The notes under the pieces: generated by a model
Told to the model about the DNA's origin: nothing
The model's input: only the letters and a program-made list of their open reading frames with translations
The model's database searches: none
Shown: positions 8,917 through 55,736 of the stretch, one piece after another
Layout of the letters: each line of letters opens with the position of its first letter
Position numbering within the stretch: the stretch's first letter is position 1
Assembly (NCBI RefSeq): GCF_026341125.1
Contig: NZ_JAPEOR010000001.1
Location: 3,596,001-3,660,000, forward strand
Direction: 5' to 3'
Source of the DNA: Streptomyces sp. NBC_01142
GTDB taxonomy: Bacteria; Actinomycetota; Actinomycetes; Streptomycetales; Streptomycetaceae
Length of the DNA: 64,000 nt
Made by a program: the position numbers and the translations under genes

Positions 8917-9015
8917 CCGGCGGCCGGGTGGCCGACGGGGGACCGAGTGATCTGAAAAACAACTGATGATCGCTTCCCGACTTATGGCACGGGGGCCTGT
9001 ACAAGGGATATGGGG

Positions 9016-10857: not shown

Positions 10858-10860
10858 ACG

Positions 10861-11778
10861 GTGCTCGTCTTCGCCGCTTCCGACAAGGGAGGCACCGGCC
10901 GCTCCGTCACCAGCGCCAATGTCGCCTACCGCAGGGCGCTCGCCGGAGACGATGTCTGCTACCTGGACTTCGACTTCGGATCACCCACCGCCGCCGCGGT
11001 CTTCGACGTTCCGAGCGCGCTGCGCGGCATCGAGCAGGGCGGTCTCCACTCGTACCTCCAGGGCAAGGCCACCGAGCCGGTACGGATCGACGTATGGGCC
11101 GAGACCGAGCACGAGGTGCTGCGCTACCGGCCGACCGGCTCGGGCAGTCTGGTGCTCCTCCCCGGCGACCGCAGCGGGGGCGAATTCGCCGTCGGCAAGG
11201 ACGCGTTGAGTCGGTGCGTCGACCTGTTCCTGCGGCTGAACAGCGAGTTTGACCTGGTCGTGGTCGATCTGAGCGCGGGCCGCAGTTATGCGACGGACAT
11301 GGTGCTCGAAGCCACCTCACGGCCGGAACTGCGGGACGTCGACGCCCGCTGGCTCGTCTACCACCGCTGGACCCGGCAGCATGTGATCGCCGCCGCCGGG
11401 CTGGTGTTCGGTACGCGGGGCATCATCGCCGGCGGCGTGGCCCGCGGACATGACGAGGACCGGCTGCGGGGCAGTATCCGCTTCGTACGGGCCGCGGTGC
11501 CCGACCCCGAGTCGGCACTGTGGTCCCAGGTGCCGCCCGCGCAGTCCGCGTGGATGCGCAAGTGCGACCAGGACCTCAACAAGCTCGCGGCCGAACTGGA
11601 CATCGGCTTCAGCCGGGTGCTGGGGGCCGTGCCGCTGGAGCCCGTGCTCCAGTGGCGCGAGCAGCTGATCACCGACGAGGACGTCCTCGCCAGCCGGGTC
11701 GCGAACATGGAGACCCGGCAGGCACTCGAAGACCTCGCGACCCGGCTGACCGACGACGACGCGTGGGGGCAGCGATGA
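10861..11778 (+). CDS. Variant P-loop ATPase, ParA/MinD-like (SCO2523-like)
   Basis: A 305-aa protein with the N-terminal layout of SIMIBI/ParA ATPases: VFAASDKGGTGRSVTSANVA (about residues 3-22) at the deviant Walker A site, then CYLDFDFGSPTAAAVFDV and LVVVDLSAGRS as the later strands. The signature Lys is present, but the canonical GK[ST] is GRS, so nucleotide binding or hydrolysis may be altered; this explains the family label 'variant P-loop'. GTG 10861 lies 3 nt after the preceding stop, with GGGGAG upstream. The next gene overlaps it by 4 bp (ATGA), indicating translational coupling. A partition-like or GTPase-switch role in this cluster is inference. Confidence 0.85.
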   Translation: MLVFAASDKGGTGRSVTSANVAYRRALAGDDVCYLDFDFGSPTAAAVFDVPSALRGIEQGGLHSYLQGKATEPVRIDVWAETEHEVLRYRPTGSGSLVLLPGDRSGGEFAVGKDALSRCVDLFLRLNSEFDLVVVDLSAGRSYATDMVLEATSRPELRDVDARWLVYHRWTRQHVIAAAGLVFGTRGIIAGGVARGHDEDRLRGSIRFVRAAVPDPESALWSQVPPAQSAWMRKCDQDLNKLAAELDIGFSRVLGAVPLEPVLQWREQLITDEDVLASRVANMETRQALEDLATRLTDDDAWGQR

Positions 11779-20017: not shown

Positions 20018-21503
<1,486 letters not shown>

Positions 21504-21797: not shown

Positions 21798-22190
21798 CGC
21801 ACGACACCAATGTCGTCGGCGCCGCGCGCGTCACGCACGCCTTCCTGCCGCTCCTGGAAGCCGGCGACACCCCGGTCGTCGTCAATGTCAGTAGCGGTCT
21901 GGGCTCGCTGGCGGCGACCGCCGACCCCAACCGCATCGAGTTCCATGTGGCGCTGCTGGACTACAACTCCTCCCAGACCGCCCTGGTGATGATCACCTCG
22001 CAGTACGCCAGGGCTTGTCCCGCCATCACGTTCAACGCCGTCGACCGCGGCTACACCGCCACCGACCTCAACGGCCACCAGGGCACCCAGAGCGTCGAAG
22101 AGGGCACGGACGCGATCGTTCGCATGGCCTCCATCGGCGCCGACGGCCCGACCGGCGGCTTCTTCGACAGGACCGGCCCGGGGTGTCTGG
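21798..22190 (+). pseudogene. Short-chain dehydrogenase/reductase remnant
   Basis: The frame reads the second half of an SDR: TNVVGAARVTHAFLPLLEAG, VVVNVSSGLGSLAATAD, then FNAVDRGYTATDLNGHQGTQ and ending DGPTGGFFDRTGP. The nucleotide-binding N terminus (TGxxxGxG) is missing, and the catalytic YxxxK is replaced by YNSSQTALV, so Lys is lost. A transposase fragment abuts its 3' end. It cannot be an active enzyme. Confidence 0.75.
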
Positions 22191-22395
22191 TAACCAGACC
22201 CACTCCTCCTTCGCCACCGGGGCCGGGGCGAACCTGGCTCTGTTCGAGTACATCGACGGCTTCTGCAACACCAGATGCCTCCAGCAACGCCTTGGCTTCC
22301 TCAATCCCATCGGGTTCGAGGAGAGGTAATACGCCGACCAGGCAACGGCCGAACAAGTAGACCTGAAACCCCGTCACCCTGCCCCGACCAGTGAT
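22190..22395 (+). pseudogene. IS3 family transposase (orfB) C-terminal remnant
   Basis: Translation gives ANLALFEYIDGFCNTRCLQQ then RLGFLNPIGFEER, the classic C-terminal block of IS3 OrfB (FEYIDGFYNTRRxHxxLGYLSPxEFE). It then meets an in-frame TAA and continues YADQATAEQVDLKPR, so the stop lies inside the old gene. Only about 65 codons survive. It is fused to the broken SDR and marks an old insertion or deletion. Confidence 0.7.
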
Positions 22396-22576
22396 CAGAA
22401 CTTCCCACGCAGCGGGGAACCCCTCAGCCCGCGTCGGGAGCGGAGGGCAACCGCATAGGGAAGCATGGCCCAAACAGTAATGCGACAGTATGAGTTATGG
22501 CTTTAGCATTCCGCTATCTTGCTGGCTGGGTGGATAGTTGACGGGCAATGCTGGAATCCGAATAGGGAGGTTCCTC

Positions 22577-22789: not shown

Positions 22790-22823
22790 CCCACACATCA
22801 AGGTGACTGCCGGGAGGACCGAA

Positions 22824-24488
22824 GTGAAGACAGAGTATCCCGGCGTCCGGTCATCTCGAAGGCGCGCGGTGGAGGACCGGGCAGTCGCCTGGCTCGCTGC
22901 GCGCCGGGTCATGCTGGACCCGCGCAACGCCCGGCCGGACACAGTGCTTTTTGCCCGCAAAGCATTGATCGAGACGGCGTTCCTTGTGGGGCTTCGCGCC
23001 CGCCTTGACGAGGCTCCTCTTGCCGGCGATTTTGCGGCCATTCTGGAGCAGGTTGAGGACGTCGCCCGGCAGCCCTCCTATCGGGAACTCATCGCACGGG
23101 ACGAAGCCGCCCTCCTGCTGTATGCAGGAACGTATGCTGCGCTGCGGCTCTGTGGCCGTGACGACCCTGAATTCCGGCGTATCATCCAGCAAGCCGCTGC
23201 CGGCGGGTACGCCGCGGCGTTCGAGCGGGTTCCTTACCGGCAGCTGGACCTGCTCCACACGCTGCACCTGTGCGGGATCGAGCATGGTCTGCCTGCTATG
23301 GATGACGTTCTGCCTTTCACGGTCCTGTGCCGTCGTCCGAACGTGCTCAAGATGGCCGACCGCGACATCTACGCCATCACCCACACCATCTTCTACGTCA
23401 CGGACTTCGGTCGGCGCGAGCCTGTATGGCCCCGCGGATACAGCCTCGGTGAGGCTGTCGAACTCCTGGAAGCACTTCTCGTCCTCGCCGAGGCCCGTGC
23501 GAACGCCGACCTGGTCGGGGAGCTGCTGTGCTGTCTGCTCTGCCTCGGTGTCACCGACTCCGACGCAGCAGACCAGGCATGGAGGTTCCTGGAATCCGTC
23601 CAGGAGGACAACGGCCGCGTGAACGGACCCAAGGGCGTCATTCATCCCGGACTCGAGAGTGAGAACGACGACTTCCGTCACTGGGCGGAGGGATACCACA
23701 CCACCATCGTCGCCGCCCTGGCCGGTTTGCTGGAACGGAGTCCCCGACGAGTCGCGAAGCCACGCCCAGGCCTGCCGGTAACGGACGTCGTACTGGTGGA
23801 GCCGCTCCGGCGCGCCGTCCTGTGGCTGTGCGACAGGAGCATGACGCAAGATCCACGTACCGGACTGCCCGGAGTCACGGCCGCCGCTGTCGGGGCTTCG
23901 GCAATCGAGGAACACCGACTTGTCCGGCCGGCGCTCGAACACTACGCAGCGAGCCTTGCTGATGCGGACCCGGAGGTCTGGCAGGAACAAGGCATGGAAA
24001 TTGCAGGAGAGTTCGCCATGGCTCTCCGTACAGCTGAAGTCAGCTGTCCTTCCCTGGAAGAGTTCCTCAAAGCAACAGCCACGGTGGTCGACTCACTCGA
24101 CAGCGTCCCCGCCGACGTCATGGACAACGTGCAACGACTCGTCAGCCTCGGCCTCACCCGTCCTTCACCAGGCACGGTCATCCCCGAGCAGCCCCTGACA
24201 CGCGAGCACCACGCATACCCTCTTCACGCCGCCACCACCCTGTGTGAAGCCAGAGGGACTTACCACCTCGGCCAGCTCGCAGCCACCGTCCGCACCCTTG
24301 TCCATGACGGATGGCGGCAGCACCGCATCACCCGAGACGCCATCGCGTTCCTCATCGGACAACAAAGCGCTGACGGAGCCTTCGGCTATCCCGCTTGCGA
24401 CGACCAGGCACAGCGGGAGAAGGCCCAGTTCTCCTGGACCCGGAGCGTGGTAACAGCCCTGGCCTCCGCGACCAGGAACGGTGAGTGA
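22824..24488 (+). CDS. DUF6895-like protein, predicted alpha/alpha barrel
   Basis: A 554-aa soluble helical protein. The N-terminal half has an alternating helix pattern with the block DIYAITHTIFYVTDFGRR that I associate with DUF6895-type proteins. The C-terminal half has TRDAIAFLIGQQSADGAFGY and RAVLWLCDRSMTQDPRTGLP, repeats reminiscent of prenyltransferase/terpene-cyclase toroids (LxxQxxDGxFG). No DxDD or Cys/His zinc motif is obvious, so catalysis is not assigned. GTG 22824 is preferred over GTG 22803 because GGGAGG (22812-22817) lies 6 nt upstream. It is probably co-transcribed with the 70-aa gene. Confidence 0.8.
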   Translation: MKTEYPGVRSSRRRAVEDRAVAWLAARRVMLDPRNARPDTVLFARKALIETAFLVGLRARLDEAPLAGDFAAILEQVEDVARQPSYRELIARDEAALLLYAGTYAALRLCGRDDPEFRRIIQQAAAGGYAAAFERVPYRQLDLLHTLHLCGIEHGLPAMDDVLPFTVLCRRPNVLKMADRDIYAITHTIFYVTDFGRREPVWPRGYSLGEAVELLEALLVLAEARANADLVGELLCCLLCLGVTDSDAADQAWRFLESVQEDNGRVNGPKGVIHPGLESENDDFRHWAEGYHTTIVAALAGLLERSPRRVAKPRPGLPVTDVVLVEPLRRAVLWLCDRSMTQDPRTGLPGVTAAAVGASAIEEHRLVRPALEHYAASLADADPEVWQEQGMEIAGEFAMALRTAEVSCPSLEEFLKATATVVDSLDSVPADVMDNVQRLVSLGLTRPSPGTVIPEQPLTREHHAYPLHAATTLCEARGTYHLGQLAATVRTLVHDGWRQHRITRDAIAFLIGQQSADGAFGYPACDDQAQREKAQFSWTRSVVTALASATRNGE

Positions 24489-24658
24489 CGTCGATCGGAC
24501 CCAGCCCGTGGCGGCCCGGTCCGGACGTGGGCGACGGATGGTTCAGCCGCCCGACCAACGAGCGGGAACCATCAGTTTCGGCTCAACAAGCAGGTCCGGA
24601 CCAAGTGGCGGGACCTGCGCGAGCGGCCGGAGAAATCCGCCGAACCGCGTACTGGTCA

Positions 24659-25087
24659 ATGGATGATCGGCACAATGTGAGGGTGTCCACCTTTACTGAG
24701 CTCCAACTCGCCGACGGCACCGCCATCCGCTTCGAACTGGCCCCGGCGCAGGGCGCTCCGTCCGGTGCCGAGCCTGCCGACGGCCGTGCCGCCGATCCGG
24801 CGAACGAGCTGCCCGACGGCATGGGGCAGAGCGTGCCCGTGGCCCGCGGCGGGCAGACCGTCTCGGCCTTCGCCGTCGAGACGCTGCGCCGGACCCTGCA
24901 GCCGCTGAGCACCCTCCTCGAGGAGGTGCACGACGCAGTTCTCGCCGCGGAGCACCCGCCCCAGGAGGTGAACGTCTCCTTCGGCATCCAGGTAGGCCAC
25001 GACCTCAAGCTCGGCATCGTCGGCGGGAACGGGCAGGCGCACATCACCGTCTCGGCGACCTGGCAGCCCGCCGCGCCCCGGACCTGA
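24659..25087 (+). CDS. Trypsin-co-occurring domain protein (Trypco1 / CU044_2847-like)
   Basis: A protein of about 142 aa. The pattern ELQLADGTAIRFELAPA, a variable linker, VSAFAVETLRRTLQPLSTLL then PPQEVNVSFGIQVGHDLKLG and GQAHITVSATW matches the small Trypco1 family: beta strands flanking a central helix, ending in an I/V-T-V-x-x-x-W strand. These proteins accompany trypsin-like effector proteases in bacterial conflict systems, and the next gene, 3 nt downstream, is exactly that. Start is uncertain: ATG 24659 or GTG 24683 (VSTFTELQL); neither has a good ribosome site. It may act as an adaptor or substrate of the protease (inference). Confidence 0.82.
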   Translation: MDDRHNVRVSTFTELQLADGTAIRFELAPAQGAPSGAEPADGRAADPANELPDGMGQSVPVARGGQTVSAFAVETLRRTLQPLSTLLEEVHDAVLAAEHPPQEVNVSFGIQVGHDLKLGIVGGNGQAHITVSATWQPAAPRT

Positions 25088-25090
25088 CGG

Positions 25091-27244
25091 ATGGGCTGGT
25101 TCCACGACACCCACGGGCCGGCGTCCGCGGATCCGCGTCGGTCGGTCGTCACCGTCCTGCGCGTCCACGACGGCAGGACGGCAGGGGCCGGTGTGCTGCT
25201 GGCCGCGGACCAGCTGCTGACCTGTGCCCATGTCGTCAACGACGCACTGGGCAGACCCCTGTTCGAGGCCCGGAGCCCCGGCCGCCCGGTTGAGGTGATC
25301 CTGCACGGCGCGACCAGCACCACCCGGTACGACGCCACGGTCACCCACTGGGTGCCGCCCCGCCGGATCGACGGAGCGCCGGGTGTTCGCGAACGGGAGG
25401 ACCAGGAGTGGCTCGGCGACCTCGCCGTCCTGCGGATCGAGTCGCCGCCCGAGGAGCAGGCGCCGGCCCCCCGGTGGCAGCCCATGAGCGAAGGGCAGGC
25501 ACTGCGCGCCTGGCACAGCACCGGGTTGCGCAGCTCGTTCGCCGACGTACGGGTCAAGTCCTGTGACGAGACCATCGGTTACCTCGACGGCGAGGCGACC
25601 GGCATGCCGATTGGCCCTGCGTACAGCGGCGGCCCCCTGTGGGAGGCCACCGGGCACGCCGTCGTGGGCATCGTCGCCGCCCACATCATGCCGCCCGTCG
25701 ACCCCGCGACGGGCCGCCCCGCGGCGTACAGCACGCAGCACATCGCGCGCCGCAGCTGGGGCATCCCGTGGCAGCGCATCCAGAGCGAGTTACGGGCGGT
25801 GGGCGCCGACCGGCTGTTCGACTCGCACGAGGCGGACCCGGACGACCCTGCCCTGCTGCTCCTTGTCGACCTGCTGGAGGCCGTCATGCCCTCGCCGATG
25901 CTCAGGGGCGAGCATGCGGCGGCCGTCGCCGAGCGGTGCGGACTCGGACACAGCGGCCACGGGTCGGCACCCACCTTCGAGGAGTTCGCGGAACTGCTGG
26001 TGGTCCGCCCGCGCGCACTGGCCGCGCTGACAGAGGTACTGCGCCGGGGGGACCCCGGCGCCGCCGACCAACTGCTCGCCGCCGGGCTGCTGTCCCGGAC
26101 GCCCAAGCTGCTCTCCCCGCGGGAACACCGCAAGCTGCGGGTCCTGCTGCGCGCCGTCCCCGCACCCGTCACGGCCCGGCTCCCGGAGGCCGTACGGGCG
26201 GCGCTGCCGCTGGCCGCCGAGCTCCCGTCGGACGAGACACTCGAGGGCCTCCTCGACCGGCTGGAGAGCCTGCCGGGCGACAGCCGTACCGAAGCGGGCG
26301 GGCCACGCGTTCCCGGGCTGCTGCGCGTCATGGAGTACTTCGCCGTTCTGTGCTCCGCAGCGCCCCGGGCCGGGTTTCGGATCTGGGCGGACGCGGTCGC
26401 CGGACGGCTCGGCATTCCCCGTTCCGCGCTGGCCGAGCGCCGGTCGGACGCGGAGGACTGGGCGCGGGCGCTCAGCACCCGAACGGCACCCCTGCGCGTC
26501 CTGGTGCAGGTTACCGGGGACGACAACGGCCGCTACCGGCTGCGGATGTGGTGCGACGAGGGCGCGGGGCCCCGCCGGCTGTCCGTCGAGGGCGGCGCCA
26601 CCTACAGCGGAGCCGAGGCGGCGCACGAGCTGCTGAGAGTGCTCGAATCGCTGTACCGGGCCGCACCGGACGACCGCCGGCCGCTGGTCGAGGCGCTGGT
26701 GGACCGGGCCGGGCTGAACCTCCCGATCGACGAATGGGACAGCTTCGGTCCCGACGACTTGGTCCCCGGGGTCCTGGGCGCGGAGTACCCGCTCGTGGTC
26801 AACTGCCCGGAACTCTTGCGCCGCAACGAGCGTTTCCTCCCTGACTGGCGCCGAAGATGGCGACAGGTCGATTCGGGCACCTCCCTGCGGTTCAGCGACG
26901 ACGCCGCGAGCCCGCGCGAGGTCTACGGCACGCTGATGGACCAGCGCGACGCCGCCCGGGTCAGCGTCGACGTACCGCCGCGGCTGCGTGACGAGATCGT
27001 CCAGGTGTGTCTGGCCGTGGGCGTGCCCGTGGTGGTGTGGGACCGGGGCGCCGACAGGGAGTCGCACGCCGTCGACCACATGACCGAGGTGACCACCCGC
27101 GACCTGCCCGAAGGGGTGCGGTCCTACCGCGCCAAGACAGTGCACCGGCCGCACGACTTTCCGGGACGGCCCGTGCTGGCCTGGGCGGACGCGGACCGGA
27201 CCGTACCGCAGCTGCATCTGTCCGAACCCCAGGAGAGCCTATGA
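25091..27244 (+). CDS. Trypsin-VMAP protein of a vWA-MoxR conflict system
   Basis: A 717-aa protein with no signal peptide, so it acts in the cytoplasm. Residues 15-215 are a trypsin-like serine protease with an intact triad: His47 (LLTCAHVVND), Asp110 (EWLGDLAVLRIE) and Ser179 (PAYSGGPLWE). Residues about 250-330 form a helical effector-associated-like domain (LLVDLLEAVMPSPMLRG). From about 465 on it resembles VMAP-C (LRVLVQVTGDDNGRYRLRMW, VDRAGLNLPIDEWDSFG, LGAEYPLVVNCPELL). VMAP proteins are the third partner of vWA and MoxR ATPases, both encoded just downstream. Its stop overlaps the MoxR start (ATGA). The protease is presumably held inactive until the NTPase module senses a trigger. Confidence 0.87.
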   Translation: MGWFHDTHGPASADPRRSVVTVLRVHDGRTAGAGVLLAADQLLTCAHVVNDALGRPLFEARSPGRPVEVILHGATSTTRYDATVTHWVPPRRIDGAPGVREREDQEWLGDLAVLRIESPPEEQAPAPRWQPMSEGQALRAWHSTGLRSSFADVRVKSCDETIGYLDGEATGMPIGPAYSGGPLWEATGHAVVGIVAAHIMPPVDPATGRPAAYSTQHIARRSWGIPWQRIQSELRAVGADRLFDSHEADPDDPALLLLVDLLEAVMPSPMLRGEHAAAVAERCGLGHSGHGSAPTFEEFAELLVVRPRALAALTEVLRRGDPGAADQLLAAGLLSRTPKLLSPREHRKLRVLLRAVPAPVTARLPEAVRAALPLAAELPSDETLEGLLDRLESLPGDSRTEAGGPRVPGLLRVMEYFAVLCSAAPRAGFRIWADAVAGRLGIPRSALAERRSDAEDWARALSTRTAPLRVLVQVTGDDNGRYRLRMWCDEGAGPRRLSVEGGATYSGAEAAHELLRVLESLYRAAPDDRRPLVEALVDRAGLNLPIDEWDSFGPDDLVPGVLGAEYPLVVNCPELLRRNERFLPDWRRRWRQVDSGTSLRFSDDAASPREVYGTLMDQRDAARVSVDVPPRLRDEIVQVCLAVGVPVVVWDRGADRESHAVDHMTEVTTRDLPEGVRSYRAKTVHRPHDFPGRPVLAWADADRTVPQLHLSEPQESL

Positions 27245-28191
27245 ACCCCGCACCGAACGGAAGTTGGCGGATCTTCCGCGGCGACGGCCTGCAACGCCGC
27301 GTGACGATGCCACCGTCGCCCCCGTGGCGGCGGTTCACGACCCCGGAACGGGCGGCCGCACCGTTGCCGTATCTGATCTCCCCCGAGCACGCCGACGTGG
27401 TCAACGCCGCGCTGCATCTGCGCCGGCCGCTGCTGGTGACCGGACCGGCCGGCACCGGCAAGTCGTCGCTCGCCCGGGCCGTCACCCATGAGCTCGCTCT
27501 CGGCGAACTGCTGCGCTGGCCCGTCAACAGCCGCTCCGGCGTCCAGGACGCGCTCTACCAGTACGACGCCATCGGACGGTTGCGGGAGACGACCCTCAAC
27601 CGGGACCGCGGCGAGACGGAACCCTCCATCGGCAGCTTCATCCGGCTGGGGCCGCTCGGCACCGCGCTGGTGCCCGCAGGGACGCCGCGGGTGCTCCTGG
27701 TCGACGAGATGGACAAGGGCGATGTGGACCTGCCCAACGACCTGCTGACGGTCTTCGAGGAGGGCGTCTTCGAGATTCCCGAGCTGGTACGGCTGCCGGC
27801 GGACACACCGGTCGTCGACGTCGTGACGGCCGATCACGAGGGGACCGTGAGCGTCGAGCGGGGACGGGTGCAGTGCACCGAGTTCCCGGTCGTCGTCATC
27901 ACCAGCAACGGTGAGCGGGACTTCCCGCCCGCCTTCCTGCGCCGCTGCATCCGGCTGGACTTCCCGGTGCCGGACGAGGAGCGGCTGCGCGCGATCGTCA
28001 CCGCGCACCTGGGCCCCGACGCGCTGCTCGACGTCGACGACCTGCTCCAGGCGTTCCTGCGCCGGAGGGCGCCGGGCGAGCTCGCCACCGACCAGTTGCT
28101 CAACGCCGTGTTCCTGCGGGCCGGCGGCGTGGACCTGGACGCGGAAGGGCTGCTGGACGCCGTACTGCACCAGTTGACGGGGGCCGTCTGA
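27241..28191 (+). CDS. MoxR-like AAA+ ATPase of the conflict system
   Basis: A 316-aa AAA+ ATPase. Walker A is VTGPAGTGKSSLAR (about residues 66-79), Walker B LLVDEMDKGD (about 151-160), sensor-1 VVVITSNGERDFPPAFL with the following RRC arginine region. The C-terminal lid helices carry a DxDDLLQAFLRRR segment. The insert before Walker B (EPSIGSFIRLGPLGTAL) is typical of MoxR/CbbQ-like proteins. It overlaps the VMAP gene by 4 bp and is 2 nt from the vWA gene, so all three are translated together. MoxR ATPases work with vWA proteins to remodel targets, here probably the protease or its regulator. Confidence 0.9.
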   Translation: MNPAPNGSWRIFRGDGLQRRVTMPPSPPWRRFTTPERAAAPLPYLISPEHADVVNAALHLRRPLLVTGPAGTGKSSLARAVTHELALGELLRWPVNSRSGVQDALYQYDAIGRLRETTLNRDRGETEPSIGSFIRLGPLGTALVPAGTPRVLLVDEMDKGDVDLPNDLLTVFEEGVFEIPELVRLPADTPVVDVVTADHEGTVSVERGRVQCTEFPVVVITSNGERDFPPAFLRRCIRLDFPVPDEERLRAIVTAHLGPDALLDVDDLLQAFLRRRAPGELATDQLLNAVFLRAGGVDLDAEGLLDAVLHQLTGAV

Positions 28192-28193
28192 CC

Positions 28194-31100
28194 ATGACGG
28201 ACCCGGCCCGGCGACTCGGTGCGGTCCTGCGGATCCTCAAGGGCGCGGGCCAGGACCTCGACCCGCACGAGGCACTCGACGTGCTCTGGCTGGCCCGTGT
28301 GCTGTCCGCGGACGGCGACGCCGATACGGCAGAGCTGCCACTGACCCGGACGCAGGCCACGGCCACCCCGCGCCGGGAGAGCGGCGGGCCGGGCTCCGGC
28401 CGTACGGCCGTGGCGGCCGGACGAGACGGCGGCGGGCCCGGCGGGACCCAGGAGCCCGGTGGGTCCTCGCTCGCCGACCCGGAGCTGCATGCGGCCTCAC
28501 TGCGCGACCCTCTGCCGGACAGTCCGGGAGCGTACGACTCTCCAGACCCTCCCGAGCCGCCCCAGCAGGACCGCTTCCCCCCGCCCCCGAAGGAGAAGTC
28601 GGCGCTGCCGCTGCGGGTGCCCGAGGGCAAGGCCCTGCCGCTGCAACTGGAGATCGGCAGGGCCTTGCGGCGGCTGAAGGTCAAGCAGCCCAGCCGCCGA
28701 CGCCAGGAGCTGGACGAGCGGGCCACGGCGGCCGCCTTGGCGGAGACGCGGCTGCCGGACGTCGTGATGCGGCCCGCCCGCGAACGGTGGCTCCATCTGG
28801 TGATGGTGGTGGACGACGGGCTGTCCATGCTGCTGTGGCACCGGCTCGCCACGGAACTGCGGACGACGATGCAGCGCCTCGGTGCGTTCCGCTCGCTCCG
28901 CGTACTCGGCATCGACACCCGCACCGGCGGTGGTACGCCACAACTGCGCGGGCGCCCCTTCGACCCGGGCAGCTCCACGATGTCGCCCTCGGTGCTCACC
29001 GACCCTTCCGGTCAGACCCTGGTCCTGGTCCTCAGTGACGGCATGGGCGCGGCCTGGCGGCGGGGCAGCATGCACGACGTACTGCTGCAGTGGGCGGCCG
29101 CCGGACCGGCGGCCGTCGTGCACGCCCTGCCGCCCACGCTGTGGGCCGGCTCCGGTATCCAGGCCGACCGCTGGCAGGCCACCACCCGGCGGCCGGGAGG
29201 CGCCAATACGTCGTGGGACATCACCGACAGGGTGCTGCCCGCAGCTCTGGTGGACTTCGCAGGGGTGCCGATTCCCGTGCTCGAACCGACCCCGGAAGCG
29301 CTGCGCGACTGGGCCGGGCTCATCACCTCACCGGGCACCACCGTGGAGTTGCCGCTGCTTTCCCGTCCTCGCGCGCACGAGGCGGTGGCGAGGCCCCGGA
29401 CGGCCGGGCGCCTCCAGCACTTCCGGGACGCGGCGTCGCCCGAGGCGTACCGGTTGGCCGCGCATCTGGCCGCCGTGTCGCCCGTCTCCGTACCGGTGAT
29501 GAGGCTGGTGCAGTCCGCGGTGCCCTGGCAGGCCACTACCGCGCACCTGGCGGAAGTCTTCCTGGGCGGGCTCATCCACCCGTACCCCGCGCCCACGCCC
29601 GGGCCACTGCCCGTACAGCACCGGATCTTCGACTTCACAGAGGAGTCGAAGAACGCGCTCCTCGACGCCGTTCCCAGCGCCGAACTACTGCGTACCGGCC
29701 ACCGGATCGGCCGTCGCCTGGAGCAACTGGCGGGCCGCTCACCGGACTTCCCCGCATGGCTGGCCCACCCGGACGGAGCGGACACCCTGCCCTCGGCGTT
29801 CCGCTCCTTCACCGCTGTCGAGCGGCGGCTCATGGCCCGGTTCGGGGTGTCGATGGAGCTGCCCCGCTCGGCCCGGCCGGCGGCACGCCCCGACCGCGCG
29901 GCCCAGTGGAGCCCGCTCACCCCGGAGGACCCCCGGCGCCTGGGACAGTTCGACCTGCGCGGCCGCCAAGTCGGCAACCGTACGATCGTCTACCTCGGCC
30001 GCGACTCTGCCGGCAGGCAGGCCGCACTGCGTGTGGTCCGGCCCGATCAGCCCGCGTCCACCGGGCAGTTGCTCGTCACCGAGGCGGAGGCGCTGCGGCG
30101 GATGGGCGGCCGGTACGCCCCGGAGCTGCTGGCCACCGGGTTGCACGAACGTACGGCCTGGATCGCGATGGGCCTGCTGACCCCGGCCGGCCGCTCGGAC
30201 GCCCCCCTGCCGCGGCTGAGCGACCTGGTCGGCCCCGATGTGCCGTACGGCAGCGGGTACCTCGACATCATCACCAGCCTCACCCTCGGCTGGCAGCTGG
30301 CGAGCGCCCTCAACATATGCCATCTGATGGGACTGGCACCGGCCGATCTCTCCGCCGACTCGGTGTTCGTCCTGAGCCGCCGCTCAGTTGTCCTGGGCGG
30401 TCTGTCGGACTGCGCCGTGGACGGGGAGTACGCAGGGCAGGGGCCCCTGCCGACACCGGCCGGCAATGTTGCGTCCCTCGGCCGGCTGCTCCAACTGGTC
30501 AGCAGCAAACCGCTCGCCGCGCTGCCCGGCGCGCCGGAGGGGATGCACCTGTGGCAGGGGGACACCTGGCAGCCGCTGCGCGAGCTGGTGCTGAGCTGTC
30601 TCGCCCCGGATGCCGAACAGCGGCCCACCCCGAGCGAGGTGGCGGACGTGCTGGCCCGGTACGTGGCGATCGCGCGCGCCCTACAGGGCGGGGCACCGGC
30701 ATCGTCCGCCCCCCGCCCGGCCGGCGGGAGCACGGCGGCCCCGCCGCGCCCGCCGCTCGCGACGGCGGCCCAGGCCCCGTCCGGTACCGTCCGGCCCGGC
30801 CCCGAGCCGTCGCAGTCAGTGCAGGGCGTCCCGACCGCTCAGCCCCGGCCCCCCGCGCCGCGCATCGGCCGGCGGACCATGCTGCGGGGCATCGGGCTGG
30901 GCCGGGCCGCCCACCATCACCTCGTCTCCCTCGCCCGGCGCCCCCTCACGTACAGCCGCCGCATCACTCTCACCGGCGTCCAACCGAGCTGTGGCCGGGC
31001 CACCACGACCTTGACGCTGGGAGCAGTCCTCGCTGCGTTGCGCGGGGAGCCGGTGCTGGCGCTCGACGGCGCCCCGGCTGGAGGGGACCTTCATCACCGG

Positions 31101-31706
31101 CTCGGGCTCGACCAGCGGCGGGCGCTGACGAGCAGCGGCCGTTCGCCACTGCGCGAGGTGATGACGCTGCCAGTGGACGCGCCGCACGACGCCATCCGGC
31201 GGTTGGCGAGCACCACCCCGTCCGGTCTGGAGGTCCTCACACACGGCGCGATCCACTCCGCCCAGAGCCCGGCGTACGGCGACGAGTACCGGCGGCTCAT
31301 GGCGATGACGGCGCCGCACTATCCGGCCGTGCTGACCGACTGGGCCGGGCTCCGGCTGGATCCGACCGCCGATGTCGTACTGGATCTGACCGATGTCCTG
31401 ATCGTCTGCTGCACCACGTCGGAGGAGTCGGTCGAAACCACCAAGCGGCTCCTCGACCGGCTGCGCAACGCGGGCCGGGGGGCTCTGGCGGACAACGCGA
31501 TCGTGGTGGCCACACGGCTCGGCGGGGTCCTCAGGGACGCGCACATCCGCGACCGCTTCGGCGACCGGCCGGGTCGTTGCCTGACCGTGCCCTTCGACAG
31601 CCATCTGGCCGGCGACCGGGAGATCCGTCTCGACCGGATCAAGCCCCACGCCGCGGAGGTGTTCGTGGAGCTCGCGGCGCGGGTCACCGACGATCCGAGC
31701 GGGTGA
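28194..31706 (+). CDS. Giant fusion: SAV_2336-type vWA, pseudokinase and ParA-like domains
   Basis: An 1170-aa protein. Residues 1-42 are a helical SAV_2336-like N terminus; 43-190 a Pro-rich linker and basic helices. About 195-392 is a vWA-like fold (LHLVMVVDDGLSMLLWHRL, LVLVLSDGMGAAW) with a degenerate metal site, DDGLS in place of DxSxS. About 395-560 is helical. About 582-822 looks like a protein kinase (YLGRDSAGRQAALRVVR) but the HRD/DFG motifs are changed to APADLSADSV and GLSDCA, so it is a pseudokinase. After a Pro-rich linker (825-900), about 921-1165 is ParA/MinD-like with GVQPSCGRATTT replacing the KGGVGKT loop. It supplies the vWA partner of the ternary system and probably senses or scaffolds. 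Confidence 0.85.
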   Translation: MTDPARRLGAVLRILKGAGQDLDPHEALDVLWLARVLSADGDADTAELPLTRTQATATPRRESGGPGSGRTAVAAGRDGGGPGGTQEPGGSSLADPELHAASLRDPLPDSPGAYDSPDPPEPPQQDRFPPPPKEKSALPLRVPEGKALPLQLEIGRALRRLKVKQPSRRRQELDERATAAALAETRLPDVVMRPARERWLHLVMVVDDGLSMLLWHRLATELRTTMQRLGAFRSLRVLGIDTRTGGGTPQLRGRPFDPGSSTMSPSVLTDPSGQTLVLVLSDGMGAAWRRGSMHDVLLQWAAAGPAAVVHALPPTLWAGSGIQADRWQATTRRPGGANTSWDITDRVLPAALVDFAGVPIPVLEPTPEALRDWAGLITSPGTTVELPLLSRPRAHEAVARPRTAGRLQHFRDAASPEAYRLAAHLAAVSPVSVPVMRLVQSAVPWQATTAHLAEVFLGGLIHPYPAPTPGPLPVQHRIFDFTEESKNALLDAVPSAELLRTGHRIGRRLEQLAGRSPDFPAWLAHPDGADTLPSAFRSFTAVERRLMARFGVSMELPRSARPAARPDRAAQWSPLTPEDPRRLGQFDLRGRQVGNRTIVYLGRDSAGRQAALRVVRPDQPASTGQLLVTEAEALRRMGGRYAPELLATGLHERTAWIAMGLLTPAGRSDAPLPRLSDLVGPDVPYGSGYLDIITSLTLGWQLASALNICHLMGLAPADLSADSVFVLSRRSVVLGGLSDCAVDGEYAGQGPLPTPAGNVASLGRLLQLVSSKPLAALPGAPEGMHLWQGDTWQPLRELVLSCLAPDAEQRPTPSEVADVLARYVAIARALQGGAPASSAPRPAGGSTAAPPRPPLATAAQAPSGTVRPGPEPSQSVQGVPTAQPRPPAPRIGRRTMLRGIGLGRAAHHHLVSLARRPLTYSRRITLTGVQPSCGRATTTLTLGAVLAALRGEPVLALDGAPAGGDLHHRLGLDQRRALTSSGRSPLREVMTLPVDAPHDAIRRLASTTPSGLEVLTHGAIHSAQSPAYGDEYRRLMAMTAPHYPAVLTDWAGLRLDPTADVVLDLTDVLIVCCTTSEESVETTKRLLDRLRNAGRGALADNAIVVATRLGGVLRDAHIRDRFGDRPGRCLTVPFDSHLAGDREIRLDRIKPHAAEVFVELAARVTDDPSG

Positions 31707-32090
31707 CCTCGATGGCATCTCTGCGCCATGCCCGTCGGGCGGTGACAGCCCATACCGTACGGGTGAGATGGCCGCGGGCTCCGGCAGGCGCGGGGCGCGG
31801 CGGCCGGGGGTGAGCGAGCCGAGGATGCCCGGCAGGGTCCTGAACGCCTTTGTCCGTGTGGAGCGCGCTGTGTTCACCCCGCCCGTCCCTGAATCTGCGT
31901 GGGCCCTGATGAAATTCCGCTTCCCATGAGCGAAGGGCTCAACCAAGGTCCTGGCCGATCGTCTGGGCGTCTCCCGCCCCGCACGGCCGGCTCCGTTCAC
32001 TTCCCGGAGCAGGTGTTTGTCCGTGACGTCCGCACCAGTGGTCGGAGGCCAACCGCTCCCCGGATCACGGAAGATGACAGCGCTTCTCTG
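31707..32090. other. Intergenic, no gene seen
   Basis: A 384-bp gap between the conflict operon and a convergent acetyltransferase. No hairpin terminator with clear stem was recognised and no frame has support. Confidence 0.4.
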
Positions 32091-32597
32091 TCACAGGGCT
32101 CGGCGCATGCAGGCCCGCGGCCACCTGTCCAAGCCGTGTGCCGCTTCGCGCTCGCGGATCTCCCGCAGGCCAGGAGTAAGCATGGTTTCGTTCATGGGCC
32201 GGAAACCGCAGCGCGCGTAATAGGGGGCATTCCACGGGACTTCGGTGAACGTGGTGAGAGTCAGGGCGGGTATCCCGTTGCCTGCGCCGTGAACCGCCAG
32301 ATGTTCCAGCAGGGACCTTCCGATACCGCGGCGTGCACTGTCCGGGTGCACTGAGACCTGCTCGACGTGGAGGTTGCCGTCGACGAGGTCGGCGATCAGG
32401 TAGGCGATGGGGGCATGGGCGTCGTTGGCCGCGACCCAGGCCAGTCCGGCCTTCTGGTATCGGGCGAGTTCGCCGAGCGGGAGCGGCTCGTCGTCGGCGA
32501 TCTCCGGCATGCCGATGTCTCGGAAGCACCGCCCGGCGGCCCTCTCGATGTCCTGGAGGAAGAGCAGCTCGTCCGGCTGCACTGCTCGAATATGCAT
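32091..32597 (-). CDS. GNAT family N-acetyltransferase
   Basis: A 168-aa acetyltransferase. Motif A is VEQVSVHPDSARRGIGRSLLEHLA (A-R-R-G-I-G acetyl-CoA loop), and motif B is VPWNAPYYARCGFRPM. The N terminus MHIRAVQPDELLFLQDIER is normal for the family, and I start at ATG 32597; a TTG at 32612 is possible but less likely. It lies between the two conflict operons on the opposite strand and has no evident partner. Substrate unknown. Confidence 0.9.
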   Translation of the reverse strand: MHIRAVQPDELLFLQDIERAAGRCFRDIGMPEIADDEPLPLGELARYQKAGLAWVAANDAHAPIAYLIADLVDGNLHVEQVSVHPDSARRGIGRSLLEHLAVHGAGNGIPALTLTTFTEVPWNAPYYARCGFRPMNETMLTPGLREIREREAAHGLDRWPRACMRRAL

Positions 32598-33005: not shown

Positions 33006-33353
33006 ATGGACGCGCAGGAGCGTGCAGCGCTTGGCTGGCTGTGTGCAGAGTTACCCGAACTGTCGGACGAATGTGCCCGCCAGCCCGCAGCCCAGCAGGC
33101 CCTGTTGGAGCGCATTGAGCAGCGGGCTCGGAACCGCCGGCCTCTGGCGGAACTGTTCGCGGAACTGCTCGGACGGGATCCCGAGAGCGTCCGCGGCCTT
33201 CTCGGCTCCGGCCTGCCGGGACAAGGGACGGGGCGAGCCAACGAGGAACGGTTCGGCTGCCCGGACGGCGCCTGCGACCGGAGAGCCGGCACGACCCCGG
33301 CCGGGCCACTGCCCCGGTGCCACGTGACTGGTACGCCGATGCGGCGGGTCTGA
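33006..33353 (+). CDS. Small accessory protein of the TPR-CHAT operon
   Basis: A 115-aa protein. Residues 1-60 are helical (MDAQERAALGWLCAELPEL, LLERIEQRARNRRPLAELF). The C-terminal 35 residues are a Cys-containing module, FGCPDGACDRR then PLPRCHVTGTPMRRV, that could bind a metal or fold as a small beta hairpin. It is the first gene of a three-gene run ending in a CHAT protease and stops 5 nt before the membrane gene. Small proteins in this position are known in actinobacterial caspase/CHAT-TPR (CATRA-like) conflict operons; the exact family is recall and unverified. It may be an adaptor. Confidence 0.72.
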   Translation: MDAQERAALGWLCAELPELSDECARQPAAQQALLERIEQRARNRRPLAELFAELLGRDPESVRGLLGSGLPGQGTGRANEERFGCPDGACDRRAGTTPAGPLPRCHVTGTPMRRV

Positions 33354-33358
33354 CGGAC

Positions 33359-34249
33359 ATGACCGGGTTCTTCCAGGCGCTCGCCTCCCAACTGGCCGCG
33401 AAGTGGGTGTCGCTCCTGCTGCTACCCGGGGCTCTGTTCACCGCGACCGCCTGGATCGCCGCGCACCTCGGCCACGCGCACGCCCTGGACGTCGGCCGAC
33501 TCGACGACACGGTGTCCGTCAACTACCGGTCGCTGTCCCACGGCAGTACCGGCGCCCAGATCCTCACCGTGATCGTGTTCCTGCTGGCGGCCACCGGCGT
33601 CGGTCTCGTCGTACAGGCCTTGGCCGGACCGACCAGGGCGCTATGGCTGGGCCGCTGGCCCGGCTGGGCAGCGGCTCGGCTCGTTCGGCACCGGCGGAAC
33701 CGGTGGAACTCGCTTGTACAACGACGTCGCAGCGCGGCGGGAATCACCGACGCCGTCGCGCGGCAGGCGGCGGTTGACGCGGCAGCGGCTCGAATCAACC
33801 GCATGGCATTGGCCGAGCCGGGTCGGCCGACGTGGATGGGTGACCGCATCCACGCCGTCGAACAGGTCAGCTTCGACCGGTACGGGCTGGACTTGACGTT
33901 CTGCTGGTCGCGGCTGTGGCTGGTGTTGCCGGACTCGGTCCGGACGGAGATCACCGTCGCCAACAGTGCCTTTGCCGGCGCAGTCGCCGTGGGTGCCTGG
34001 ACCGTGCCCTACCTGGGGCTGGCGTGCGTATGGTGGCCGGCTGCGGTGGTCGCCGTCTTCGTGGGAGTCACCGGTTGGGCGCGCGGGCGGAGTGCGGTCG
34101 CCGACCTGGGTGCCCTCGCCGAGGCCGCCGTCGACCTGCACGGCCGGAGCCTGGCGCAGGCACTCGGCGTGGGCGGGACTGATGCGACGATGCCGCTGGA
34201 CACCACAGAGGGCAAGGCCGTGACGGACATCGTGCGCAAGGGACGGTGA
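33359..34249 (+). CDS. Membrane protein of the TPR-CHAT operon
   Basis: A 296-aa integral membrane protein with about four helices: WVSLLLLPGALFTATAWIAA (about 15-35), ILTVIVFLLAATGVGLVVQA (about 68-88) and a C-terminal hairpin (AGAVAVGAWTVPYLGL, AAVVAVFVGVTGWA). The loop between pairs is a basic, cytoplasm-facing stretch of about 110 residues (RHRRNRWNSLVQRRRSAAG). I start at ATG 33359, 5 nt after the preceding stop. Its own stop overlaps the GTG of the CHAT gene (GTGA), showing tight coupling. A pore-forming or anchoring effector role in the system is inference. Confidence 0.82.
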   Translation: MTGFFQALASQLAAKWVSLLLLPGALFTATAWIAAHLGHAHALDVGRLDDTVSVNYRSLSHGSTGAQILTVIVFLLAATGVGLVVQALAGPTRALWLGRWPGWAAARLVRHRRNRWNSLVQRRRSAAGITDAVARQAAVDAAAARINRMALAEPGRPTWMGDRIHAVEQVSFDRYGLDLTFCWSRLWLVLPDSVRTEITVANSAFAGAVAVGAWTVPYLGLACVWWPAAVVAVFVGVTGWARGRSAVADLGALAEAAVDLHGRSLAQALGVGGTDATMPLDTTEGKAVTDIVRKGR

Positions 34250-37200
34250 CCGTGCCCCGTCTGCAGGAGCTGATAACCGCCTGGTCCGAGACCGGGGACG
34301 AGTCGGCGCTCCTCGAAGCCACTGCCCTGGCCCGGGATCAGTTCGAGACGGAGTCGACGGCCGACCACCGGATCATCTATGGGCAGTTGCTCATTGCGAG
34401 GTACCTGGTCGCCGCCAAACGGACGCCGTCCGACAACGTCCGGGACGAAGCGATGCAGGTCCTGGTGACAGGGGCTGCGGACCAGGTGGATCCGCTCGAC
34501 TCGCTGGCGATCGGTCTGCCACCGGCCGGCCGGGAAACGCCCCGCGATCGGTTCCTCACCACGGCCATCGACGTGCTGGGACCCGACGACGCCGATATTC
34601 ACCCGGTCCAGGCCGCTGTGCTCGCCTCTGCGCACAGGACGCGTTACGAGGACAGGAACGACCCGGAGGCGCTGCGGCGCAGCCTCGCCGTGCACGAGCG
34701 GCTGCTCGCGGACTTCCCCCAGGATCCCGAGCTGCAGTACGGGGTGGCGAGGGACCTGCTCGCGCTCGACGCGTGGACGAACGACTCAGCCGCGCTGAAG
34801 CGGGCGGTGACGCTGTCCTACGGGGCCGCGGCCAGTGATGACGACCTCGACCCGGACGTCCGCGTGCTGTTCCTGATCACGTTGACCACTGCATACCGGA
34901 CCAGCTACGACCGGACGTCCGATCCGGAAGACCTCGCGAGGGCCCAGGACATCATGGCCAGGGTCGTCGCAGCGATCGGCGCAGGGCAGGTGCTCAGCGG
35001 CGTGTGCGCGCACCTGCTGGGCACGCTGCTCGTCCGGCGGCACCGGAGGTCCGGTGAGGCCGGGGCGCTGCACGCCGCGATCGTCTGCCTGCGCACGGCA
35101 GCCGACGAGGAGGACACGCCGGAGCACTTGGCCGACCTCGCCGACGCGCTGCTGCTGCGGTCGTCGTCGGAGGCGGACGACTCCTCACGCGCCGAGGCGT
35201 CCACGGCCACCCACCGCTGCGCCGGACTCACCGGAGCGCAGCAGGCCGACGCTCATCTCGCGCTGTTCGCCCACGGCTGCTCCCTGCTCGCCGCCTACGA
35301 GAACGCGGCGGGCGGGACGCCGATTATCGAGACCGCAGTGCTCTTCCTCCGCCTTGCCCTGGGCCGGCTGCCCACCGAGCACCCTGCCAGGGCCGAGTAC
35401 ACCGGGAGACTGGCCGAGGCGTGGCTGTTGAAGTACGACGTCACGCAGACCGATCGCGACCTGGCCGGCGCCCTGGAGGCGACCGCGGCCGCAGCACGGC
35501 TGACCCCACGCGACCACCCCGACCGACCACGACGCCTGGACCGGTTCGGTCAAGGCCTGGTCATGTGCTTCTTCGTCACCCACGACGAGGCGTACCTGAC
35601 GAAGGCAGTTCGGCTCCTCAACGACGCGTGGGAACTCCTGCCGGAGGAGCACCCCTACCGATGCGAGGTGCTGTTCGACCTGGCCCGGACGACGCTACTC
35701 CTCGCCGACCACCTCGATGACGACGAACTGCGCGAAGGCGCCCAGGGCATGCTGCGCAAGGTGGTGCTGTCCCACCTCGCAGTGGCGCCGGTGCAGTTGG
35801 AGGCGAGCCTCGCCTGGGGCGACTTGGCCGCCGCCCGGAGGAAGTGGCCCGAAGCATCGGTGGCCTACCAGAACGGCATCATGGCCCTTCGCGAGCTGAT
35901 GATCCTGCAGCTCACCCGGGACGTCCAGGAGACCCGGGCCGCCCAGTTCGCGGGGCTGGCCGGAGATGCGGCGGCCAGCGCACTGCACGCCGGCGCAGTG
36001 GGTTTCGCCACGCTGGCGCTGGAGACAGGCCGCGGTGTCATGCTGGGGCGCCAACTGGACCTCACCGCACAACAGAACCTGTTGGCAACCGGCGATCCCC
36101 GACAAGCGGCCCGCATGACCGAGCTGCTGCACGAGCGGCGGGAGGCCGCGGCAGTGCTGGACCAGATGCACGCTCGGGGCCGATTCCTGCCCCACCGCGC
36201 CGCCGACGCAGCCCGCCGGCTCCGGAACGCCTCCGAACGCCTGACCGGTCTGCTGGCCGAGCAGCGGGACCTGATCACCGGAGACCTCGGCCGCGTGTGG
36301 TCGGTCGAGCAGATGATCGCGGCGGCGGAGCAGGGACCACTGGTCCTGGTGAACATCAACCGGTACCGCTCCGACGCAATCATCGTCCGGTCCACCGGGA
36401 TCACGGTGCTGCCTCTCACGAGCGAGGAGTGCACCCTTGAGAAGGCAGCGTCGTGGGCCGAGGAGCTGACCGGGGCAAGCAGTGGATCGTTGACCGCAAG
36501 CCTCAAGCTGCGCCGTGTCGTGCCGCAGATCCAGGCGTGGCTGTGGACGGCTGTGGCGGGACCGGTCCTCGACGAGCTCGGGTATCCGCAGTTACCCGGG
36601 GATCTCACCGCGCGGCCGAGGGTCTGGTGGCTGCCCAGTGGCCCGCTGGCGCTGTTGCCGCTCCACGCAGCCGGCCTGCCCGGCGGTCCCAACGCGCTGG
36701 ACGCAGTGGTGTCGTCGTACACGCCCACGTTCCGATCGCTGCGCGACGCCCGCCGTCCGGGCGGCGGCGGGCGGGTCCAAGCCACCGTGGGAATGCGGCA
36801 CACCCAAGGCGCCCAGGAGCTGCCGAACACGGTCGCAGAGGCGGAGGCAGTGCAGGCCGGCCAACCGGGCGACCCGCTGGTCGACTCCGACGCCACAGCC
36901 GACCGGGTACTCACTGCGTTCTCGGAGTCGACGTGGATCCACCTGGCCTGCCACGGGCTCGTCGATGCGGGCACGCCATCGATGAGTGGTCTGGTGCTCC
37001 ACGACCGGGTCCTGACAGTGGGAGAGATCGTGCAGGTGCGGTACGAGAAGGCGGCGCTGGCGTATCTGTCGGCGTGCTCGACGGCACGGTCGAGTACGGC
37101 ACACGCGGACGAGGCGATCCACCTGACGTCGGCTTTCCAGGTGGCGGGCTTCCGGCATGTGATCGGTACGCTGTGGCCGGTGCGCGACGAGGTCGCCGCC

Positions 37201-37344
37201 GAAGCCGCCCGGCTCTTCTACACCGTCCTGGGCGACGAAGCCCACCACGCGGCCGAGGCCCTGCACCGTGTCACCCGCCGGCTGCGCATGGTCCACCCGG
37301 ACTCCCCGGAGATCTGGTCGATGCTGGTCCACGGCGGAGCATGA
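34246..37344 (+). CDS. TPR-CHAT protease (caspase-like) protein
   Basis: A 1032-aa protein. Residues 1-640 are tandem helical repeats of TPR type (ARDQFETESTADHRIIYGQL, LAGALEATAAAARLTPRDHP, ALETGRGVMLGRQLDL). From about 690 to the end is a CHAT domain: RVWWLPSGPLALLPLHAAG is the usual entry strand, His903 lies in WIHLACHGLVDAG and Cys944 in YLSACSTARSS, followed by the family's IGTLWPVRDEVAAEAARLFY. The catalytic His/Cys pair is intact. CHAT proteins are caspase-like peptidases activated through their TPR sensor in antiphage or programmed-death systems. GTG 34246 overlaps the upstream membrane gene. Confidence 0.92.
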   Translation: MTVPRLQELITAWSETGDESALLEATALARDQFETESTADHRIIYGQLLIARYLVAAKRTPSDNVRDEAMQVLVTGAADQVDPLDSLAIGLPPAGRETPRDRFLTTAIDVLGPDDADIHPVQAAVLASAHRTRYEDRNDPEALRRSLAVHERLLADFPQDPELQYGVARDLLALDAWTNDSAALKRAVTLSYGAAASDDDLDPDVRVLFLITLTTAYRTSYDRTSDPEDLARAQDIMARVVAAIGAGQVLSGVCAHLLGTLLVRRHRRSGEAGALHAAIVCLRTAADEEDTPEHLADLADALLLRSSSEADDSSRAEASTATHRCAGLTGAQQADAHLALFAHGCSLLAAYENAAGGTPIIETAVLFLRLALGRLPTEHPARAEYTGRLAEAWLLKYDVTQTDRDLAGALEATAAAARLTPRDHPDRPRRLDRFGQGLVMCFFVTHDEAYLTKAVRLLNDAWELLPEEHPYRCEVLFDLARTTLLLADHLDDDELREGAQGMLRKVVLSHLAVAPVQLEASLAWGDLAAARRKWPEASVAYQNGIMALRELMILQLTRDVQETRAAQFAGLAGDAAASALHAGAVGFATLALETGRGVMLGRQLDLTAQQNLLATGDPRQAARMTELLHERREAAAVLDQMHARGRFLPHRAADAARRLRNASERLTGLLAEQRDLITGDLGRVWSVEQMIAAAEQGPLVLVNINRYRSDAIIVRSTGITVLPLTSEECTLEKAASWAEELTGASSGSLTASLKLRRVVPQIQAWLWTAVAGPVLDELGYPQLPGDLTARPRVWWLPSGPLALLPLHAAGLPGGPNALDAVVSSYTPTFRSLRDARRPGGGGRVQATVGMRHTQGAQELPNTVAEAEAVQAGQPGDPLVDSDATADRVLTAFSESTWIHLACHGLVDAGTPSMSGLVLHDRVLTVGEIVQVRYEKAALAYLSACSTARSSTAHADEAIHLTSAFQVAGFRHVIGTLWPVRDEVAAEAARLFYTVLGDEAHHAAEALHRVTRRLRMVHPDSPEIWSMLVHGGA

Positions 37345-55643: not shown

Positions 55644-55736
55644 GCCAACTCAGACGCTCATCCCCGCCAAGCGAAGCGCTCCACCGCCAAGTGAATCGCT
55701 CAGTCACACGAGGTGTGACTGAGCGTTTCAGTTGCC
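55644..55736 (-). repeat. Long inverted repeat, right copy
   Basis: The inverse partner of 52762-52853, with an estimated four fifths of positions identical. It bounds, with the left copy, a 2.8-kb segment holding the lipoprotein gene and IS110. Confidence 0.85.

Follow-up and report, generated by a model that had tools for sequence, protein, structure and literature searches.

A mobile four-gene cassette of the predicted VMAP ternary class, with a trypsin-fold protease, in Streptomyces sp. NBC_01142

Introduction

In 2020 Kaur et al. (PMC7159879) predicted the VMAP ternary systems from genomic data; what is said below of this paper, as of PMC10907252 and PMC12799240, refers to portions of their text. 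Here we describe a cassette at 24659-31706 on the forward strand of a 64,000-nt stretch of Streptomyces sp. NBC_01142 (contig NZ_JAPEOR010000001.1, positions 3,596,001 to 3,660,000), the whole of which is referred to as the window. Judging from its genes, the cassette is securely placed among these systems. It is real and well formed, has a patchy distribution and is mobile, its four genes moving as a unit, and its large vWA (von Willebrand factor A) protein is typical. A tentative reading, to which we give a probability of about 0.42, is that it would be a conflict cassette in which a MoxR-vWA pair gates an HtrA-like protease that is freed on invasion and acts on the cassette's own vWA protein.

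Gene content of the cassette

Four open, co-directional reading frames (ORFs) encode Trypco1, a trypsin-fold VMAP, a MoxR-type AAA+ ATPase and a SAV_2336-type vWA protein, with the following features.

24659..25087, + strand: Trypco1 (trypsin-co-occurring domain 1) gene, start uncertain; PF19493 65.7 bits (cut-off 24.6), 91 homologues
25091..27244, + strand: VMAP, 717 aa, made up of trypsin-fold protease, VMAP-M0-like middle and VMAP-C; Trypsin_2 44.1 bits (cut-off 27.6), VMAP-C PF20028 137 bits (cut-off 27)
25091..25816, + strand: protease domain of VMAP, residues ~1-242, HtrA-like fold; His47 at 25229-25231, Asp110 at 25418-25420, Ser179 at 25625-25627
26111..26440, + strand: VMAP-M0-like helical middle, residues 341-450, predicted sensor; VMAP-M0 22.1 bits, just below the cut-off of 25.9
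26528..27193, + strand: VMAP-C domain, residues 480-701; PF20028 137 bits
27241..27244, + strand: ATGA overlap of VMAP stop and MoxR start, read from the sequence
27241..28191, + strand: MoxR-type AAA+ ATPase, 316 aa; Walker A K74 and Walker B D155/E156 intact; AAA_5 25.9 bits (cut-off 22)
28194..31706, + strand: SAV_2336-type vWA protein, 1170 aa; NF041121 (SAV_2336 N-terminal domain) 373 bits (cut-off 200)
28776..29363, + strand: vWA domain, residues ~195-390, with MIDAS-like (metal ion-dependent adhesion site) D207, S211 and D282; residue conservation, weak VWA_CoxE match in homologues
29931..30677, + strand: pseudokinase, residues 580-828; Arg613, kinase Pfam models in at most 3/40 homologues
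30936..31688, + strand: MinD/ParA-like P-loop domain, residues 915-1165; Arg935 replaces the Walker A Lys, ParA 3ea0 E 6e-4

These profile scores bear out the initial annotation, which had placed the genes in the vWA-MoxR-VMAP ternary class with a trypsin and Trypco1. In the profile search that it had proposed, VMAP-C, Trypco1 and the SAV_2336 N-terminal domain exceed their cut-offs, while no MoxR-named model and no Pfam vWA model does so on the window proteins. An absence of VMAP-C and vWA similarity, named there as a finding that would speak against the class, is not what was found, VMAP-C scoring well above cut-off. The tight packing described for the genes also holds, although the junctions, given as 4 bp and 2 bp, are a 3-nt gap (Trypco1/VMAP), a 4-nt overlap (VMAP/MoxR) and a 2-nt gap (MoxR/vWA). 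The overlap recurs in 43 of the 60 loci with all four genes. A scan for promoters and terminators found nothing.

The ATPase is predicted to be a motor that remodels proteins. The only MoxR-named model, bpMoxR, scores 14.1, under its cut-off of 27, and the name MoxR is used here because of the N-terminal motifs and the gene order. Kaur et al. (PMC7159879) describe the N-terminal MoxR motifs WxhapG and PsWRxa as unique to these ternary systems. The corresponding motifs in the window are WRIFRG and PPWRRF, and the W, F and G of WxxFxG and the P, P, W, R and F of PPWRxF are present in 63/63 loci. The Walker A lysine and the Walker B D/E are kept in all 62 readable rows.

The assignment of the vWA domain is weak: the window protein matches no Pfam model, and VWA_CoxE matches 10 of 40 aligned homologues at E <= 1, weakly (best E 0.004). 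D207, S211 and D282 are found in 60/60 loci and G209 in 58/60; among the 40 aligned homologues D282 is invariant and D207, G209 and S211 are kept at >= 90%. Gly209 lies at what we take to be the MIDAS position where Ser is usual. At the N-terminus of the same protein, D29 and W32 are kept in 57/58, and the exact spacing of the [D/E]xxx[D/E]xxxa motif given for these systems by Kaur et al. (PMC7159879) is not evident in the window. The same paper also assigns conserved S, E and R residues to a C-terminal extension of the vWA protein.

The VMAP protease and Trypco1

The triad His47/Asp110/Ser179, reported as intact in the initial annotation, was confirmed in the window protein. Counting the window, 62 of 63 loci have H, D and S aligned at these positions; only the locus L093 departs, being out of register in the alignment, yet it has a Trypsin_2 match and a GASGA stretch. 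By its triad the protease is live-looking, and activity in the cell is predicted. A structure search with the whole VMAP gave matches that were all taken up by the protease domain. Asp occupies the position six before Ser179, the trypsin specificity site by S1 numbering, in just 6 of the 62 rows aligned, so narrow trypsin specificity is not indicated. Residues 240-470 are the least conserved of six regions compared, with a mean identity of 42.5%.

None of the four cassette proteins has a strongly hydrophobic N-terminus by hydropathy over 19 residues, which peaks at 1.57 in the four proteins and at 1.45 near any N-terminus. As far as hydropathy goes, without a signal-peptide predictor, no secretion signal is thus evident, in line with the earlier remark that there is none.

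The Trypco1 gene can be read from ATG 24659 or from GTG 24683 (134 aa, as in the database record P0246), and the latter may be the true start. A structure search with Trypco1 gave no match at E <= 0.001, the query being a poor model (mean predicted local distance difference test score, pLDDT, 57.7), and sequence profiles of Trypco1 and VMAP gave no match against solved structures. The host genome holds one VMAP-C match and three Trypco1 matches.

Distribution and movement of the cassette

Of 392 genomes sampled in the genus, 79 contain a relative of the VMAP at E <= 1e-20; the host genome is one of these, and some of the matches are partial. The named homologues among the matches listed are Streptomyces. 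Across the class, VMAP-C was above cut-off in 50 of 296 genomes sampled. Sixty-two relatives were compared, namely 60 of the listed places (59 genomes) together with L032 of S. beigongshangae and L033 of S. smaragdinus. By tblastn, all 62 have a MoxR match and 61 have a vWA match, which is short in L077 and L092; in L090, which lacks a vWA match, the contig ends inside MoxR. The order VMAP-MoxR-vWA is kept in 61/61 relatives with all three core genes matched. Trypco1 lies upstream of VMAP in 60 of the 62. In L093, Trypco2 (87 bits) stands in its place, and in S. smaragdinus neither Trypco1 nor Trypco2 was seen beside the operon, four Trypco1 matches being found elsewhere in the genome. Upstream of position 10001 of the S. 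smaragdinus locus, the cassette adjoins what by eye resembles succinyl-CoA ligase and CoA-binding genes.

The clearest picture of movement comes from S. beigongshangae, whose VMAP is 87% identical to that of the window. When the 64-kb window was compared with this 22-kb locus, a single nucleotide match was obtained (24628-31697, 86% identity), which covers the four genes minus the last nine bases, plus ~30-55 bases upstream. None of the 62 relatives shares a called flanking gene with the window (E <= 1e-20, 40% identity; simple ORF caller); at E <= 1e-5, four relatives each show one short flank match, to genes at different positions. The caller missed the DUF6895 and CHAT genes, and five window neighbours were therefore tested by tblastn: argG, DUF6895, GNAT, the gene at 33317 and CHAT have no match at E <= 1e-5 in the loci of the 62 relatives.

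All 1953 pairs of loci were then compared for shared neighbours and binned by VMAP identity, as given here.

VMAP identity; pairs with a shared near neighbour; pairs with >= 2 shared flank genes at any position
>= 90%; 10/10; 10
80-90%; 19/22; 17
70-80%; 13/54; 11
60-70%; 26/152; 20
50-60%; 17/249; 15
40-50%; 13/492; 17
30-40%; 8/956; 41
< 30%; 0/18; 0

From this neighbour sharing the cassette is accessory and transferable, and is passed on together with its site mainly over short times. Consistent linkage to housekeeping metabolism, which the initial annotation had named as evidence against a conflict role, is not seen, given the patchy presence, the different sites and the other neighbours. 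No fifth travelling gene was seen (~7 kb upstream and ~5 kb downstream for most loci, with a crude ORF caller). Pairwise distances between regions correlate as well, with r 0.93 for MoxR-vWA, 0.88 for trypsin-vWA and 0.58-0.68 for Trypco1 and the others (58 loci; the maximum of 200 permutations was <= 0.18).

As for the site and the vehicle, no relative with both flanks adjoining was found among the matches listed (both flanks sought in 81 genomes, in which argG, 20052-21503, is conserved), and there are no exact direct or inverted repeats >= 12 between 24301-24700 and 31651-32150. Phage records gave no match. Plasmid records gave 16 matches, of which one is full-length (56%), on a 2.8-Mb replicon that agrees with L049 in length and coordinates. 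The operon has a GC content of 0.734, against 0.680 in the rest of the window. Foreign origin was considered as an explanation and rejected: the operon is GC-richer than its flanks in 51 of 57 loci, for which reason the high value looks like a property of the genes.

A vWA protein with two pseudo-enzyme domains

Behind its vWA core, the window protein carries a kinase-like and a MinD-like domain, each with an arginine at a key site. In the first, Arg613 stands at what is presumably the position of the VAIK-like lysine, and Arg is found there in 31/31 loci of the same architecture and in 40/40 aligned homologues. In the second, Arg935 is kept in 31/31 same-architecture loci, and Arg together with D958 and D1049 in 40/40 aligned homologues. 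L053, where the vWA protein match stops at residue 840, was left out of the same-architecture counts.

The ratio of non-synonymous to synonymous substitution rates (dN/dS) between the window and S. beigongshangae is 0.205 for the protease, 0.13 for MoxR, 0.15 for the vWA core, 0.25 for the pseudokinase and 0.31 for the MinD-like domain. In four other pairs it is 0.14-0.42 for the pseudokinase and 0.18-0.43 for the MinD-like domain, thus below 1 in both pseudo-enzyme domains.

The description of the protein as unusually large did not hold: its 1170 aa fall within the 1035-1542 aa of 60 loci (median ~1135), and in Kaur et al. 2020 (PMC7159879) vWA lengths peak near 1125 and a kinase with a C-terminal MinD/ParA domain is a recurrent architecture. 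This architecture is stable in the close group, whereas among distant relatives the vWA core is kept while the C-terminus is exchanged. The vWA proteins of seven such relatives, whose protease is of the same type, were scanned with Pfam. Above cut-off, L063 has zinc ribbons, L064 a CbiA/ParA-type domain, L067 a kinase and tetratricopeptide repeats (TPRs), and L081 a kinase; below cut-off, L088 has a zinc ribbon and L072 an AAA/STAND-like NTPase, and in L084 there is no Pfam match. The vWA protein of L093 carries TPRs.

Possible mechanisms

According to Kaur et al. (PMC7159879), systems of this kind are off by default, with MoxR and vWA as the switch and effectors freed by proteolysis. Applied to the cassette, this would mean that the cytoplasmic HtrA-like protease is kept off by the MoxR-type ATPase together with its vWA partner until an invader is sensed, probably by the variable middle of VMAP; this sensing, the gating and the proteolytic release are all extrapolated from that paper. 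The further steps are our own suggestion. Trypco1 may dock or restrain the protease, and the substrate is placed inside the cassette, since no further gene was seen to accompany the four: the vWA protein would come first, Trypco1 or VMAP itself second. Cleavage of the vWA protein would deploy its C-terminal pseudokinase and MinD-like domains, and in the end the infected hyphal compartment would likely be arrested or killed, the pseudo-enzymes serving as decoys or blockers. Phages are the likely target, antiphage function being inferred. A very unlikely elaboration is that of a self-contained AAA+-gated protease switch with its own pseudo-enzyme protein as the sole dedicated substrate. Here the MinD-like domain, with the invariant Arg in its P-loop, would bind nucleotide without turnover and latch the effector shut; once cut loose by the protease, the effector would stop the infected compartment from dividing or segregating its chromosomes.

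Several points weigh against the main reading of a gated conflict cassette. The inter-domain linker 829-914 drifts (dN/dS 0.96 between the window and S. beigongshangae, 0.29-0.53 in the four other pairs), and hence no conserved cleavage motif is seen in it. The protease could equally cut host or phage proteins. Adjacency of Trypco1 is not essential, because S. smaragdinus keeps the system without a neighbouring copy, and any block of genes that moves together would show such correlated distances. PADLOC-DB (2023) models miss Trypco1 and VMAP at E <= 0.01 and match the other two proteins weakly, and the candidate model PDC-M35A matches only 3 of 45 VMAP homologues (best E 0.0009). The function of the cassette is predicted here from its genes.

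A possible, if doubtful, alternative makes the protease itself the terminal effector: a vWA protein with exchanged C-termini would sense, MoxR would relay and VMAP would degrade host or phage proteins. This order of events was proposed in a study of systems linked to diversity-generating retroelements (DGRs), where the vWA protein carries a hypermutated ligand-binding domain (PMC10907252). It would suit the differing vWA C-termini of distant relatives beside an intact triad, the fact that no fifth gene was seen that might encode a dedicated pro-enzyme, and the scarcity of Asp six before Ser179. Set against this, the least conserved part of the system is the VMAP middle, as expected of a sensor, and MinD-like and kinase-like domains would be odd as a ligand-binding sensor. 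Transfer of the four genes is compatible with both orders.

The HtrA-like fold also brings to mind a stress or developmental protein-quality module, made up of an HtrA-like protease and an AAA+ chaperone and laterally exchanged by chance; in the portions of the literature drawn on here, other MoxR-vWA pairs that have been studied act in cofactor insertion and in stress. Such a role is unlikely, since presence in 79/392 genomes at different sites and exchangeable C-termini fit conflict systems better. A protease-activated nuclease system like HamM-HamAB or the AVAST variants, with the nuclease substrate adjoining, is extremely unlikely and already disfavoured: those systems also join a trypsin-like protease to a larger protein of defence type (PMC12799240), but no nuclease of the metallo-beta-lactamase (MBL) type was found in the 13 neighbouring ORFs scanned, no window neighbour recurs beside the cassette in the 62 relatives, and transfer of four genes alone argues against a separate linked pro-enzyme.

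Surroundings of the cassette

Directly upstream of the cassette lies a DUF6895 protein (22803-24488, 267 bits), which has no match beside the cassette in the 62 relatives. Downstream, 33317-37344 contains two genes with a 4-nt overlap, one for a protein in which hydrophobic stretches can be picked out by eye, the other for a CHAT-protease protein of 1032 aa (151.8 bits), whose ACHG and SACST motifs resemble a His/Cys dyad by eye; this is possibly a second peptidase-based module, 1.6 kb downstream of the cassette. The DUF6895 gene, the GNAT gene and the CHAT pair were considered as parts of the system and rejected, being absent beside the cassette in the relatives' loci.

Further away, 8065-11778 is an SCO2525-SCO2524-SCO2523 cluster with NCBIfam scores above cut-off, namely a methyltransferase, a protein of unknown function and a variant P-loop protein with KGGTGR. 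Kinship of the MinD-like domain with this SCO2523 gene (10861-11778) is unsupported, hhalign giving a probability of 0.2% in a comparison with one sequence only. Short stretches of 21800-22420 match many dispersed places in related genomes and are perhaps mobile-element remnants. An aminoglycoside 3-N-acetyltransferase family protein (45237-46088, 229.5 bits) and an IS110-family transposase (54122-55648) complete the picture.

Comparison with known systems

No bench test of a VMAP ternary system was found in the open-licence literature, though one could exist elsewhere. The cassette is a good test case, since it is compact and complete, its triad and ATPase motifs are intact and no partner gene was seen to move along with it. 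It could help to decide whether VMAP systems protect against phages and which proteins the protease cleaves; S. smaragdinus offers a natural test of the need for Trypco adjacency.

Compared with the HtrA, MucD and DegS proteases, the cassette VMAP matches no PDZ model at E <= 0.1, bears no evident signal for export and is fused to VMAP-M0-like and VMAP-C regions. The HamM-HamAB and AVAST nuclease-protease pairs resemble it in that a trypsin-like protease inside the cell forms part of a larger defence protein, but their substrate is an adjacent MBL-fold nuclease (PMC12799240), absent among the scanned cassette neighbours. The DGR-linked VMAP systems of Thiohalocapsa PB-PSB1 share the trypsin-VMAP, MoxR and vWA, with Trypco1 in some loci; their vWA protein carries hypermutated C-type lectin domains (PMC10907252), whereas that of the cassette has kinase-like and MinD-like domains. 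No reverse transcriptase was found among the scanned part of the window ORFs.

The closest relatives are the classical VMAP ternary systems of Kaur et al. 2020 (PMC7159879), with which the cassette has in common the order VMAP-MoxR-vWA, the MoxR N-terminal motifs, VMAP-C, a vWA protein whose C-terminal effectors vary and a trypsin with Trypco1; one or other of Trypco1 and Trypco2 is frequently found beside trypsin-type VMAPs. Those systems likewise have a mostly inactive kinase followed by a MinD/ParA domain predicted to be inactive, and no categorical difference emerges from the portions of that paper drawn on here. The invariant P-loop Arg, cassette-wide transfer and a locus without neighbouring Trypco are not met in these same portions. 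What is added to the known class is the joint movement of four genes, among which no fifth was seen, the retention of protease and MoxR motifs beside an invariant Arg in both pseudo-enzyme sites, and the Trypco exceptions in 2 of 62 relatives.

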